Source of the DNA: Rhodothermales bacterium
Lineage (GTDB): Bacteria > Bacteroidota > Rhodothermia > Rhodothermales > UBA10348
DNA length: 35,497 bases
Direction of reading: 5' to 3'
NCBI GenBank assembly: GCA_017859335.1
Contig: JAFMNH010000014.1
Span: forward strand, 1 to 35,497
The notes beneath the pieces are model-generated. The model was not told the DNA's origin and ran no database searches. It saw nothing but the letters and a program-made list of their open reading frames with translations. Shown one piece after another: positions 28,694 to 34,436 of this stretch. Each line of letters opens with the position of its first letter. The stretch's first letter is position 1. The position numbers and the translations under genes were made by a program.

Positions 28694-29680
28694 ATGGAAT
28701 CCCTGCTTACTTCCTCCGGTCTGGCACTGATCGCCCTGCTTTTCCTGGGCCTTGTCGTGTTTCTCTATTTCATTCCGGTCGGACTCTGGATTACAGCGTT
28801 TTTCTCCGGCGTGCGAGTCAAATTGGTCAGGGATCTGATGGGAATGCGCCTTCGCAAGGTACCGCCGGCGACCATCGTCAAGCCCTTGATTACGGCACAC
28901 AAGGCCGGCATTGAAGTCAGTCCTCCCCAACTGGAGGCGCACTATCTGGCCGGAGGTCAGGTACAGAAGGTGGTCAATGCCCTCATCTCGGCCGACAAGG
29001 CAAATATCGATCTTCCTTTCGAACGCGCTACGGCCATTGACCTGGCCGGCCGCGACGTGTTTGAAGCCGTGCAGGTGTCCGTCAATCCAAAAGTCATTGA
29101 GACACCGCCCGTTTCGGCTGTAGCCAAGGACGGCATCCAGGTCCGGGCCATTGCCCGCGTTACCGTGCGGGCCAATATCGAGCGTCTGGTCGGGGGCGCC
29201 GGGGAAGAAACCATCATCGCCCGCGTCGGGGAAGGGATCGTGTCCACGATCGGCTCTTCCGAGACTCACAAGGCGGTGCTCGAGAACCCGGACTCCATCT
29301 CCAAGGTGGTCCTTTCGAAAGGACTCGATTCCGGTACCGCCTTTGAAATCCTGTCCATCGATATTGCTGATGTGGACGTCGGCGAGAACATCGGCGCAAA
29401 GCTGCAGACGGACCAGGCGGAAGCCGATCTCAAGATTGCCCAAGCCAAGGCCGAGGAACGGCGTGCTGCCGCCGTGGCCCATGAGCAGGAAATGCGGGCA
29501 GCGGTGCAGGAGCAACGCGCCAAGGTCATCGCAGCCGAGGCCGAAGTGCCATTGGCCATGGCCGAGGCTTTCCGCAGCGGCAACTTGGGCGTAATGGACT
29601 ACTATAACCTCCGCAATGTAGAGGCCGATACGAAAATGCGTCGCTCTATCGGTGGCGGCGAGTCCTCCTCCAAAGAATAG
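28694..29680 (+). CDS. floA: Flotillin-like protein FloA
   Basis: FloA forms membrane-domain scaffolds. The 328-aa protein has the family layout: a hydrophobic N-terminal hairpin (about residues 8-39), then [22 protein letters not shown], an SPFH domain ([33 protein letters not shown] onward), and an alanine/glutamate-rich coiled coil ([21 protein letters not shown]). The C-terminal [20 protein letters not shown] is highly typical. It is expected on the inner membrane. The next gene starts 6 bases later. In other bacteria an NfeD protein often accompanies FloA, but here the partner is an unrecognised protein. Confidence 0.96.
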
Positions 29681-29686
29681 TCCGGC

Positions 29687-30208
29687 ATGCAGTCAGCCGT
29701 TTTCACCACGCTGGGGCTCTTCTCCGTCAGTCAGGAACTGAGCGGCATGGTCATGGCGCACCTGCATGAGGCCGACCCGGAAGTGGTTGCCGAGGAAAGC
29801 CTGTGCTTGGCTGCAACGGCAACGGCCCGCGCCATCGAGGCAACCTCATCCTCCGGGCAAAACAAGCTGAGCGAATCCGTACTGTTGGCACCGTTTCTGT
29901 ATCGGGACTATCTCGTAGGATCCGCCATGTTGGAGACGGAGGATGCGGCCAAGGCCGATCTCGGCGCAGAGATCGGAGAGCGGCTTGAGCGCAAAATTGC
30001 CTTTTACGGTACGCAGCTGCCCAAGGCTACCCTCCCGACGGGAACGCTGCTCAAGAATGCCATGCTCCTGTGGATGGGGCGGATCAGTCCACCCGGCATG
30101 CCAAATGGACCCGAAGAGCGACTAGAGGCTTCTGGTGCCATAGACCGCATGAGAGGGCACGTGCGGCTCATTGCGGCACACATCAGGCATGTGGAGACGG
30201 CGGACTAA
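29687..30208 (+). CDS. Hypothetical protein in a floA operon
   Basis: No family was recognised for this 173-aa protein. It begins MQSAVFTTLGLFSVSQEL and is mostly helical with no signal peptide or clear membrane helix. A hydrophobic patch (LLAPFLYRDYLVGSAML) and a C-terminal helix rich in arginine and histidine (DRMRGHVRLIAAHIRHVE) are visible. It starts 6 bases after floA and is therefore probably co-expressed with it. Its stop overlaps the convergent CNNM/CBS gene by four bases. Its codon usage and GC resemble the neighbours, so it is likely a real gene. Confidence 0.78.
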   Translation: MQSAVFTTLGLFSVSQELSGMVMAHLHEADPEVVAEESLCLAATATARAIEATSSSGQNKLSESVLLAPFLYRDYLVGSAMLETEDAAKADLGAEIGERLERKIAFYGTQLPKATLPTGTLLKNAMLLWMGRISPPGMPNGPEERLEASGAIDRMRGHVRLIAAHIRHVETAD

Positions 30209-31497
30209 AGCGCAGGGCTGTCTGCCTGCTCGATACGCGGCACCTTGGAAATACGCACCAAGTCAATGCGGTTGGCCGTTGCGCGCAGCACCACAAAGCG
30301 GTATCCGTCCATTTCGAATTCGTCCCGCACCTTTGGAATTGTCCCCAGACGCTCCAGCAAATACCCCGCCACGGTTTCAAAATCCCCGTCCGGCAGGTCA
30401 ATGGTGCTGCCCTCCGCCAATTCGTCAATCTCCAGTCGACCACTGGCAATGACCGCGTGATCATCGAGGACGCGGAGCATGTTTTCGTCCACATCGAACT
30501 CATCCTGGATATCGCCGAAGATTTCCTCGAGCAGGTCCTCTGACGTGACCAGACCTGCCGTCCCCCCGTACTCATCGATAACAATGGCAATGGACGTGTT
30601 GGTAGCCAGGAATTCCTGCAGCAACTCCTTGGAGAGCTTGGTCTCAGGAGCAAACGTAGCCGGACGGATAATCTCCTCGATGGAGGAGGGAGCATTGAAC
30701 AGGTCCTTGGCAAAAGCCACTCCGACGATGTTGTCGATATTTTCCGCGTAGATCGGAATCTTCGAATGCCCGGTGTCTACGAACATCGCACGCAGCTCTT
30801 CGATGGGGGCTGTCTGATCCACGGCAATGATCTCCGTGCGAGGCACCATCGACTCCTTGAGTCGGATGGTACCCATGGCAAAGACGTTGGAGACAAGCGT
30901 TGACTCCTCTTCATCCAGATCAAGCTCGCCTGAGCGTTTGCTCTCTTCGATGAGGAGCTCGAAGTCCCGGCGAATGAAATCCGAAAACGAGTCTGAATCA
31001 ATACGCACTGCCCTCATGAGGAAGGATGCTGTCCATCGCGAGATGAGGATGAGGGGGAGCAGCACGAAATAGGTGATCTTCAGGGGTACGGCCAACCAGA
31101 AGACGGCCTTGTTGGCAATTTCCCGCAGGATGGACTTCGGGATGATTTCGCCAATGATCAGTACAACCACCGAAGCAATGATGGTCTGTACGGACAGTGC
31201 CAGCACATCGGCAGCACCCGGCATACCCAGAAGGTCTCCGAAAAAGAGCTGGAGCGGCGCTTCGAGGTAGAGGGCAACGAGGGTCGAATAAAGAACCAGG
31301 GCCAGGTTGTTTCCGACGAGCGTAGTGGTCAGCAGGGTGGCGGGCTCTTCAAGGAAGCCTGAAACGATGCGGCCAACCGTGCCTCCCCGGCGAGCAAACA
31401 CCTCGACCCGAAGCCGGTTGGCAGCTACGAAGGCAATCTCCGAGCCGGAGAAGAATGCGCTGAAGGTCAGGGTCAGAAGTATGACGGCGATTTCCAT
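30205..31497 (-). CDS. CNNM/CBS-domain (hemolysin C/CorC-like) membrane protein
   Basis: The 430-aa protein has a membrane DUF21/CNNM domain (about residues 1-190; MEIAVILLTLTFSAFFSGSE and SFLMRAVRID), a CBS pair (about 205-330; VPRTEIIAVDQTAPIEELR, GHSKIPIYAENIDNIVGV), and a C-terminal CorC_HlyC domain (IDLPDGDFETVAGYLLERLG). This family is linked to magnesium and cobalt export or transport and to membrane integrity; the historical hemolysin name is not evidence of toxicity. The inner membrane is the expected location. It starts 12 bases after the enoyl-CoA hydratase gene and ends the minus-strand group. Confidence 0.92.
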   Translation of the reverse strand: MEIAVILLTLTFSAFFSGSEIAFVAANRLRVEVFARRGGTVGRIVSGFLEEPATLLTTTLVGNNLALVLYSTLVALYLEAPLQLFFGDLLGMPGAADVLALSVQTIIASVVVLIIGEIIPKSILREIANKAVFWLAVPLKITYFVLLPLILISRWTASFLMRAVRIDSDSFSDFIRRDFELLIEESKRSGELDLDEEESTLVSNVFAMGTIRLKESMVPRTEIIAVDQTAPIEELRAMFVDTGHSKIPIYAENIDNIVGVAFAKDLFNAPSSIEEIIRPATFAPETKLSKELLQEFLATNTSIAIVIDEYGGTAGLVTSEDLLEEIFGDIQDEFDVDENMLRVLDDHAVIASGRLEIDELAEGSTIDLPDGDFETVAGYLLERLGTIPKVRDEFEMDGYRFVVLRATANRIDLVRISKVPRIEQADSPAL

Positions 31498-31509: not shown

Positions 31510-32292
31510 CTACCGTCCGCTGAAGGATGCCTTTCGTTTCTCGAGAAACGCCGCAACCCCTTCCTTGAAATCAGCTGTATCGCAGGCCTCTCCGAAAAGC
31601 GTGGCCTCGGCCTGTAATCCTGCCGAAAGGGGCTGATCGGCTGCGCGCAATGCTCGAAGCGAGCCGGCTACGGCCAGCGGCGCCTTCGAAAGAATGGTGC
31701 CCATCATATCGCGGGCTGAATCCATCAAATCATCGGCCGGAACGAGACGGTTGATCAGACCGATTTCATAGGCCCGATCTGCCTTGATCATACTGCCCGT
31801 GAGGATGAGCTCCGTAGCAATACCGAGCCCGACAAGACGGGGCAGGCGCTGGGTTGCGCCATACCCCGGAAGGATACCAAGATTGACTTCAGGCTGGCCG
31901 AATACGGCTGTATCGGAGGCAATACGAAGGTGACATGCCAAGGCCAACTCGCTGCCGCCCCCGAGAGCAAATCCATTGACGGCTGCGATAACAGGCTTGG
32001 GCAGGTTCTCGATCCGATTGAAAACGGCCTGACCCCGCTCGGCGAAGGCTTTGCCCGACACACCATCCAGTTCCTGGAAGCGGGCGATATCGGCCCCGGC
32101 GACGAAGCTTTTGCTCCCGGCCCCGGTCAGGATGACGCCTCGAATGGCTTCGTCCTCCTGTGCCAACGCAAAGAAGGCATCAAGATCTTCGATGACCTGT
32201 GCGTTGAGGGCATTCAGCTTGTCCGGTCGGTTGATGGTGACCGTTGCAATGCCGTGATCATCCACCTCGACCAAAAGCGTGTCGTATACCAT
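31510..32292 (-). CDS. Enoyl-CoA hydratase/isomerase (crotonase family)
   Basis: The 260-aa protein is a full-length crotonase. The oxyanion-hole regions (SFVAGADIARF and NGFALGGGSELALACH) are present, and both catalytic glutamates are in place: E115 (GGGSELAL) and E135 (FGQPEVNLGILPGYGATQRL). This suggests hydration of trans-2-enoyl-CoA in fatty acid beta-oxidation or short-chain acyl-CoA metabolism. No other beta-oxidation gene lies nearby, so its pathway is open. It lies 65 bases after the membrane/coiled-coil gene and 12 bases before the CNNM/CBS gene. A -7-like TATCTTGG lies at about 32323-32330 on the minus strand without a matching -33. Confidence 0.93.
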   Translation of the reverse strand: MVYDTLLVEVDDHGIATVTINRPDKLNALNAQVIEDLDAFFALAQEDEAIRGVILTGAGSKSFVAGADIARFQELDGVSGKAFAERGQAVFNRIENLPKPVIAAVNGFALGGGSELALACHLRIASDTAVFGQPEVNLGILPGYGATQRLPRLVGLGIATELILTGSMIKADRAYEIGLINRLVPADDLMDSARDMMGTILSKAPLAVAGSLRALRAADQPLSAGLQAEATLFGEACDTADFKEGVAAFLEKRKASFSGR

Positions 32293-33286: not shown

Positions 33287-33637
33287 TCAACGTTTCATGC
33301 GGCCAATGGTTTTTTCGGGTAGCTCCGGGGAGGAATCAGGCGAGGGTTTCGCATCTGCAGCTTCGGATTGCGATGGAGTGGATGGCCGATCGTCCGGCTC
33401 GAACGTCTCGAGCGCCAGATCCATCCGCGCTTGCGAGATGGTGCTGCTCCGCTCAAGGCGTTCAACCATTTCCTCGTGATCCTGGAAGAGCTTGCTGATG
33501 CCCTCGGTCATGTCGGTGACCGCACCCGTAATGCGGGCCTTGCGACTCATCTGCCGATGGGTCTTCTTCAACGCACGCATCTTCCGGAGGTGGTCCTTTT
33601 CGGCCTCCTTGAAGCGTTCGTATTCCTCGGGGGTCAT
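33287..33637 (-). CDS. Mini-PspA-like protein
   Basis: The 116-aa protein (ATG 33637) resembles only the C-terminal half of the PspA encoded just upstream. Its residues 54-80 (HEEMVERL...ISQARMDLALETFE) align without gaps to PspA 168-194 (HDEMITRL...SEARMEMALDSVD), with 11 of 27 identities and many conservative changes by my count. Both proteins end with LPEK and KTIGR/TIGR: here LPEKTIGRMKR, in PspA LPEK at 236-239 and KTIGR at 246-250. The first 50 residues form a charged helix; residues 81-105 are proline/serine-rich. The amphipathic N-terminal helix needed for membrane binding by PspA is absent. It could cap or tune PspA polymers; that is inference. GTG 33643 is an alternative start. Confidence 0.75.
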   Translation of the reverse strand: MTPEEYERFKEAEKDHLRKMRALKKTHRQMSRKARITGAVTDMTEGISKLFQDHEEMVERLERSSTISQARMDLALETFEPDDRPSTPSQSEAADAKPSPDSSPELPEKTIGRMKR

Positions 33638-33668
33638 AGCCACGATACACTACCAGGATTCAAGTTGA

Positions 33669-34436
33669 TCAACTCTGTGTCCGATCGCGGCCGATGGTCT
33701 TGGCACCGGTTTCCGACTCTTTTTCGGGGAGGTCAATCGAAGACTCCTCCGCTGCGCTGCTTATCTGGCCAACGCCCATTTCCAGCTTGAACTGCTTGAC
33801 GAGTTCAGAGGCCCGGATTTTTTGGGCATCCTCCTCGATCCGAAGCGACTCGGAGTCCACCGAGTCAAGGGCCATTTCCATGCGGGCTTCACTGCGCGCG
33901 GTCTGCTCCTGCAGACGCGTAATCATTTCATCGTGTGTCTGATCAATGCCGGTAACCTCAAACGACTCCAGGGTATCGGCCACCTTGGCCTGCCATTTGG
34001 CGCGCTCGTGGGCGCGCAGGGCATCCTTGGCCTCGGCAATCTTGCGCTCTTTCTCACGCATGAAGGCTTTTTTGACCTGCAGCGCCTTGTCGTAGGCAGC
34101 AGAAGCATAGGTCAATTGTTCCTTCGTGCTGGCCAGGTTCTCCCGCACGTCCTCGAGGCGCATGGCGTAGCGCTCGGCGATATCATCCCGACCGGCCTGG
34201 ATGCCCGCCTTGATCTTGGCCGTTACATCAGCAAGCTCTTTCTCGTATTTCTTGACCTCTTTCTGGAGCATCATCACATTGGCCTTGACCGTAGCGATGT
34301 TCTCATTCATTTTCGGGACTTGATCATTCAACTCTCGAATGTTCTGCTCGAGTATGAGCTTGGGGTCCTCGAGCGCAGAAATAGCGCCACCGAAGACAGA
34401 TTTTACGAAGCGTGTGAAGCGGGCCCAGATCGACAT
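33669..34436 (-). CDS. pspA: PspA/IM30 family membrane-repair protein
   Basis: PspA polymerises on stressed inner membranes and belongs to the ESCRT-III superfamily. From ATG 34436 the protein has 255 aa. The N-terminal amphipathic helix is SIWARFTRFVKSVFGGAISALEDP, followed by the PKLILEQNIRELNDQV segment and the long helical hairpin (about residues 30-195) rich in Lys and Glu. After it comes a C-terminal extension with IRASELVKQFKLEM and a tail with LPEK and KTIGR. It leads three genes, the next two probably partners. The frame is open to 34520, but those residues do not resemble PspA N-termini. A TATATTGC lies about 90 bases upstream as a weak promoter candidate. Confidence 0.95.
   Translation of the reverse strand: MSIWARFTRFVKSVFGGAISALEDPKLILEQNIRELNDQVPKMNENIATVKANVMMLQKEVKKYEKELADVTAKIKAGIQAGRDDIAERYAMRLEDVRENLASTKEQLTYASAAYDKALQVKKAFMREKERKIAEAKDALRAHERAKWQAKVADTLESFEVTGIDQTHDEMITRLQEQTARSEARMEMALDSVDSESLRIEEDAQKIRASELVKQFKLEMGVGQISSAAEESSIDLPEKESETGAKTIGRDRTQS

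Follow-up and report, generated by a model that had tools for sequence, protein, structure and literature searches.

The pspA gene and its truncated paralogue

This analysis concerns two adjoining genes in a 35,497-nucleotide stretch of DNA from Rhodothermales bacterium (GenBank assembly GCA_017859335.1, contig JAFMNH010000014.1, positions 1 to 35,497), which is called the window below. On the minus strand, pspA, which encodes a protein of 255 residues (33669–34436 including the stop codon; coding 33672–34436), is followed by the gene of a 116-residue protein, here called the mini (33287–33637 including the stop codon; coding 33290–33637). PspA is a membrane-repair protein, and bacterial PspA and Vipp1 are relatives of ESCRT-III. 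The PspA of the window comprises alpha0, the alpha1–alpha3 hairpin, alpha4–alpha5 and a disordered tail; it passes the Pfam model PspA_IM30 (PF04012) with E = 1.6e-17 and 64.3 bits against a gathering cut-off of 33.9, and its profile aligns gap-free to solved Vipp1/PspA chains over residues 1–203 (E = 3.5e-5). The gene is single-copy in the source genome. The PspA proteins of the class Rhodothermia form a divergent subfamily: their Pfam E-values are about 1e-12 to 1e-22, whereas most of the other Bacteroidota with PspA reach 1e-32 to 1e-55. One genome of the Salinibacter group (G180) has in addition a PspA of the classical type (E = 2e-48), which is unseen in the relatives checked.

The original prediction, made from the letters of the window, described the mini as a paralogue of only the C-terminal half of PspA, sharing with it 27 ungapped residues and a terminal LPEK...TIGR element and lacking the membrane-binding N-terminus. 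The details held on re-examination: mini residues 54–80 align with PspA 168–194 with 11 identities, PspA ends in LPEKESETGAKTIGR and the mini in LPEKTIGR, and the mini aligns to PspA 131–257 only, the N-terminal half of PspA giving a probability of 0.1%. The two proteins match in BLASTP with E = 2e-6, and their local alignment score of 85 exceeds the shuffle maximum of 71, none of 5000 shuffles of the mini having reached the real score, which indicates that the match is more than coiled-coil chance. The profile comparison that had been named beforehand as a refuting test gave a clear match: a mini family profile built with 37 orthologues aligned to PspA in hhalign with a probability of 99.2% and E = 3.2e-19 over 124 columns. 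When the tail and alpha5 were removed, the mini core still matched the C-terminal half of PspA (97.9%, E = 4.7e-13) and gave 0.1% against the N-terminal half; in this core-only alignment, mini residues 18–82 (33392–33586, minus strand) are homologous to PspA 131–196, that is, the end of alpha3, alpha4 and the start of alpha5. As controls, the third gene of the operon, P3, gave 0.5% with the mini and 2% with PspA. Searched against the Rhodothermia genomes scanned, the mini profile also picks out the C-terminus of PspA throughout, with E of about 1e-12 to 1e-18 in the cases listed. As a single sequence, the mini had no PspA match in Pfam and NCBIfam even at E = 10 (the PF04012 gathering score was not reached), and the matches that this search returned, SWI-SNF_Ssr4_C (0.0025) and TatB (0.037), were rejected as chance hits.

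Because the profile homology is to the C-terminal half only and the mini profile in turn finds the PspA C-terminus, the mini is a truncated PspA paralogue that retains the tail, alpha4 and the end of alpha3, in most cases together with alpha5, and has neither alpha0 nor the alpha1–alpha3 hairpin. The features of a polymer-forming PspA/ESCRT-III subunit, alpha0 and an alpha1–alpha2(–alpha3) hairpin, are thus missing from it. Most mini orthologues are 150–180 residues long and contain the alpha5C segment of PspA (RARAQELIRQMK), so the usual paralogue is a whole C-terminal half rather than 27 residues. The prediction of a dedicated truncated paralogue is sustained, with the correction that the copy in the window is unusually short and is not the typical form. 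The AlphaFold2 (AF2) model of a long mini orthologue is one continuous helix at residues 3–119, where pLDDT is mostly above 90, followed by a disordered tail (pTM 0.40).

The pair is also present in relatives, as the original prediction required of a real pairing. In all 37 genomes of the first set with a detected mini, pspA, the mini and P3 adjoin in the same order. The mini is carried next to PspA by nearly all of the class Rhodothermia, named carriers including Roseithermus, Rhodothermus and Salinibacter. Neither the triad of pspA, mini and P3 nor any orthologue of the mini was found in about 220 genomes sampled from the rest of the phylum, which gave one weak match to the mini (E = 9e-5) in a frame of 1114 residues. 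P3 occurs in all Rhodothermia members of the phylum draw but in only one of about 220 other genomes; apart from this one P3 homologue, the mini and P3 are confined to the class within the sampling used.

The tail motif shared by PspA and the mini

PspA and the mini both end in a disordered stretch with the motif [KR][TS][ILMV]G, mostly as KTIGR or KTIGK. In the window, KTIGR stands at PspA residues 246–250 (33687–33701, minus strand) and at mini residues 109–113 (33299–33313, minus strand). The motif is kept in most Rhodothermia PspA tails and in 57 of the 57 minis read, where K109, T110 and R113 are near-invariant and G112 is invariant. Few parts of the mini are as well conserved as the tail, and several minis have two copies of the motif in their tails (L045, L053, L057–L059, L061 and L063). 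The motif was absent from 12 classical Bacteroidota PspA proteins, and the AAA+ ATPase described below was absent from their genomes.

Co-occurrence of the tail motif with a dual-AAA+ ATPase

In the window and in other families, the genes are ordered pspA, mini, P3, an enoyl-CoA hydratase-like gene (ECH) and a gene for a CNNM-type membrane protein. In the sole genome outside the class with a P3 homologue (G410; E = 2e-11), P3 lies just upstream of an AAA+ ATPase and also precedes a coiled-coil protein (L163, 4252–7912), and its adjacency to the ATPase led to an orthologous protein with two AAA+ domains in Rhodothermia. G410 encodes its PspA on a separate contig, and the C-terminal sequence of that protein, KKEIGPQ, resembles the motif but has E at the position of T. 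Outside the order Rhodothermales, the operon ends with the dual-AAA+ gene. In 55 of 56 genomes this gene shares the strand of the mini and lies 3.0–5.0 kb downstream of it, and it immediately follows the CNNM gene where this was read. The gene of the source genome is outside the window and away from the operon (G000:C2:8713–10494, minus strand). Among the genomes of the draw that have PspA and lie outside Rhodothermia, only G410 has such an ATPase.

The N-terminal AAA domain of the Rhodothermia protein is degenerate, and the C-terminal domain looks active, with the single Walker A motif; among PDB relatives, the latter is closest to Cdc48/p97. The protein falls outside the Vps4/CdvC family, the CdvC model giving 38 bits against a cut-off of 650.

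PspA tails were read in 73 genomes, 70 of which were also scanned for the ATPase. The motif is in both PspA and the mini in 50 genomes, of which 47 have the ATPase and 3 do not. In six genomes the mini gene is absent and the motif is in PspA only (five with the ATPase, one without), and in four it is in the mini only, all with the ATPase. The remaining ten have neither motif nor mini, and none of them has the ATPase. Altogether, 60 genomes have the motif in at least one of the two proteins, and 56 of these have the ATPase; of the 10 PspA-bearing genomes in which the motif is missing, none has the ATPase.

On the PspA-core tree, from which four genomes with the motif and no ATPase (G024, G123, G140 and G191) were set aside, the motif and the ATPase each change three times, and always together, giving three concordant joint losses of three. 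The genomes of family f21 lost the mini and the ATPase and kept the intervening P3, ECH and CNNM genes. In G108 (L247), PspA is left alone with a shortened tail; the mini and P3 were deleted and the ATPase was lost, and ECH and CNNM were kept. Since genes between the mini and the ATPase are kept in f21 and G108, the losses there were separate deletions and not one. In G180 (G180:C1:87934–88620; L180, L251), the mini and the PspA motif are lost, P3 is divergent and the ATPase is undetected. Absence of the whole system, as in G120, G151, G152, G155, G164, G176, G177 and G183, was excluded from the independent support because the genes there normally form a single operon, all of which would disappear with the absence of one contig or with one deletion. 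The co-presence of a short C-terminal motif with an AAA+ ATPase, as looked for in an ESCRT-III/Vps4-like system, is therefore found both in the counts and in the three joint losses.

The tail signal can be carried by either protein. In four families (f4, f9, f10 and f12), the motif is gone from PspA and is kept, doubled, on the mini, and the ATPase is kept, which indicates that the mini can supply the signal alone. In f14 and f16, the mini is gone, and the PspA motif and the ATPase are kept.

Other genes of the operon and its surroundings

P3 (32358–33227, minus strand) encodes 289 residues from a proposed GTG start, with two N-terminal transmembrane helices followed by about 200 helical residues, and it is adjacent to the pair in every triad. 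It belongs to no named family: no Pfam match exceeded its cut-off, and neither PspB nor PspC was matched in Pfam. Its AF2 model is helical with a mean pLDDT of 76. The idea that P3 is a hidden PspA/ESCRT-III relative was rejected, as the profile comparison with PspA gave the 2% stated above, and P3 had no sequence match to solved structures and no PDB fold match at E of 0.001 or below. In G053, the P3 gene is split into two overlapping frames by a frameshift or a sequencing error. The fourth gene, ECH, is at 31510–32292 and the fifth, which encodes the CNNM/hemolysin-C-type membrane protein, at 30205–31497, both on the minus strand and in the order seen in other families. The genes pspB, pspC and pspF do not adjoin pspA in the window, its neighbours being those listed here; no genome-wide search for them was made. 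Viral contigs searched for matches to PspA gave none, and hence no sign of a phage module. Convergent to the operon is a gene that, by eye from its sequence, encodes a FloA/YqfA-like flotillin of the SPFH family (28694–29680, plus strand); in B. subtilis, SPFH proteins have been linked to PspA (PMC8581546).

Proposed role of the mini

We give about even chances to the reading that the mini serves as a headless accessory subunit of the ESCRT-III type and that the tails recruit a Vps4-like dual-AAA+ ATPase to PspA polymers. The wider proposal, of a bacterial ESCRT-III system equipped with a Vps4-like motor and a [KR][TS][ILMV]G code of its own, similar to the MIT-interacting motif (MIM), in which the headless paralogue mainly brings the ATPase to the polymers, is tentative and falls somewhat short of even. 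The mini would join PspA polymers, by docking or by co-assembly, through the helices at the end of alpha3 and alpha4, usually also alpha5, and, having no alpha0 membrane helix and no alpha1–alpha3 hairpin, would build no filament itself. The tail motif [KR][TS][ILMV]G[RK] of the mini and PspA would act like an ESCRT-III MIM in recruiting the ATPase, which, with its degenerate N-terminal domain and one active-looking C-terminal domain, may pull PspA subunits from the polymer, and P3 probably serves as the inner-membrane anchor of the assembly. In eukaryotic ESCRT-III, the MIMs of the tails bind the MIT domain of Vps4, some subunits doing so much better than others (PMC7618577). The mini is assigned the part of a tail-bearing accessory because it is the sole carrier of the motif in the four families that keep the ATPase with a motif-less PspA.

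Several points weigh against this reading. The four genomes that have the motif and no ATPase are metagenome-assembled genomes that are 87–92% complete and in 220–670 contigs. The joint losses are only three independent events, with a sign test p of 0.25, and with three pairs this test cannot pass 0.05. G180 is only 83% complete, and its lineage has the ATPase unlinked to the operon. No MIT domain was recognised in the ATPase with Pfam. The docking of the mini on PspA is proposed by likeness to Vipp1, in which subunits pack through their hairpins and alpha5C binds the hairpin tip of the subunit three places on; no polymers form when alpha5 is truncated, and polymerisation is tuned by the C-terminal extension (PMC8281802, PMC11919738). 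By this analogy, a protein with alpha4/alpha5 and no hairpin should at most be able to dock on a Vipp1-type filament, and the mini of the window is without alpha5C, the main inter-subunit contact. The single long helix modelled for the mini says nothing on docking.

The original prediction proposed that the mini caps ESCRT-III-like polymers or competes for a tail-binding partner. A tail-linked partner is now likely, as the motif tracks the ATPase, which is operon-linked outside Rhodothermales; the two roles given to the mini fare less well. As a cap or chain terminator, the mini would dock its alpha4–alpha5 on the hairpin tip of a neighbour, offer no tip of its own and so end or thin the polymers, the tail being incidental. 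Most minis, which have alpha5C and no hairpin, suit this role, and we regard it as rather unlikely. Domain-swap capping needs alpha5C, which makes it weak for the copy in the window, because alpha5C, the Interface 1 element, is lost there as well as in G003, G016, G023 and family f15, all of which keep the tail. The good conservation of the tail and losses that track the ATPase also speak against an incidental tail.

It is unlikely that the tail motif binds P3 or another partner, for example a reader of phospho-threonine, and is linked to the ATPase only indirectly. P3 adjoins PspA almost everywhere and is more divergent in motif-less genomes, and all copies of the motif that were read have T or S as their second residue. 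However, P3 is kept in nine motif-less genomes (eight of f21, and G180) from which the ATPase is absent; since it outlives the motif there, the motif follows the ATPase and not P3. P3 as the partner of the motif had been the initial idea and was dropped for this reason.

Competition, in which a soluble mini would titrate the ATPase away from the PspA tails, is distinctly unlikely. It would account for a motif shared by both proteins and for a mini without membrane and filament parts. However, in the four families with a motif-less PspA there is no PspA motif to protect, yet the two-motif mini and the ATPase are kept, and f14 and f16, which lost the mini and kept the motif and the ATPase, imply that a decoy would be dispensable. 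That the mini is a degenerate duplicate of little function, kept by its operon position, is very improbable: it does diverge faster than PspA (mean column identity 38% vs 77%) and is lost in several lineages, but its open frame is kept across the class, with a near-invariant N-helix, alpha4 and tail.

Comparison with known systems

For the disassembly of bacterial PspA polymers, the literature points to chaperones, PspF or the ATPase activity of PspA itself, and regulation without an AAA+ partner is stated there as unknown. Our literature searches found no link between a tail motif and an AAA+ protein for PspA. We take the accession CBH24266.1 to be a Salinibacter protein, and its operon is probably the one studied here. 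In the survey of Ravi et al. 2024, one sentence describes for Bacteroidetes (CBH24266.1) a PspA and a Snf7-like gene that neighbour a third coiled-coil gene, and section 18 states that PspA occasionally co-occurs with a protein of two AAA+ domains, the N-terminal copy being inactive (PMC11237479). The original prediction that no tail-binding partner is described in Psp systems thus holds only in part, since this survey mentions both the PspA/Snf7/coiled-coil neighbourhood and a dual-AAA+ partner in some clades. The neighbourhood is probably the system studied here. The portion of the main text of PMC11237479 considered here holds nothing on a truncated paralogue, a shared tail motif, the spread of the operon through the class or its connection with an AAA+ protein. 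Its dual-AAA+ protein is similar in architecture to the Rhodothermia ATPase, and its authors also suggest Vps4-like, ATP-dependent remodelling; it differs in that, within that portion, no recruiting motif is proposed and no headless paralogue is described, whereas the link in Rhodothermia includes co-loss.

Vipp1/IM30, another member of the PspA family, likewise has a flexible extension C-terminal to alpha5 that influences its assembly (PMC11919738). There, however, the extension belongs to Vipp1 itself; no truncated paralogue accompanies it, and a motif of the form K[TS][IVLM]G is not noted. The tandem PspA/Vipp1 genes of cyanobacteria are also adjoining paralogues, but they are PspA-like and Vipp1-like copies and not a C-terminal half (PMC11237479).

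The system resembles ESCRT-III–Vps4 of eukaryotes and archaea in having a short C-terminal motif on a flexible linker, motif-bearing accessory subunits (Did2, Vps2 and Ist1 in that system) and an AAA+ motor. It differs in that the motif is unrelated to MIM1 or MIM2, no MIT domain is recognised and the mini is without the ESCRT-III hairpin. The distribution and the shared signal suggest a bacterial counterpart of eukaryotic ESCRT-III/Vps4 recycling. There are now candidates for the motor, for the short motif that recruits it and for a naturally occurring accessory subunit. Cultured species of Rhodothermus, Salinibacter and Roseithermus have orthologues, which opens the Vps4 question in bacteria to direct tests using peptides and purified proteins. 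If the proposal is true, the coupling of an AAA+ unfoldase to ESCRT-III-type polymers through a C-terminal peptide evolved in bacteria with a different motif.
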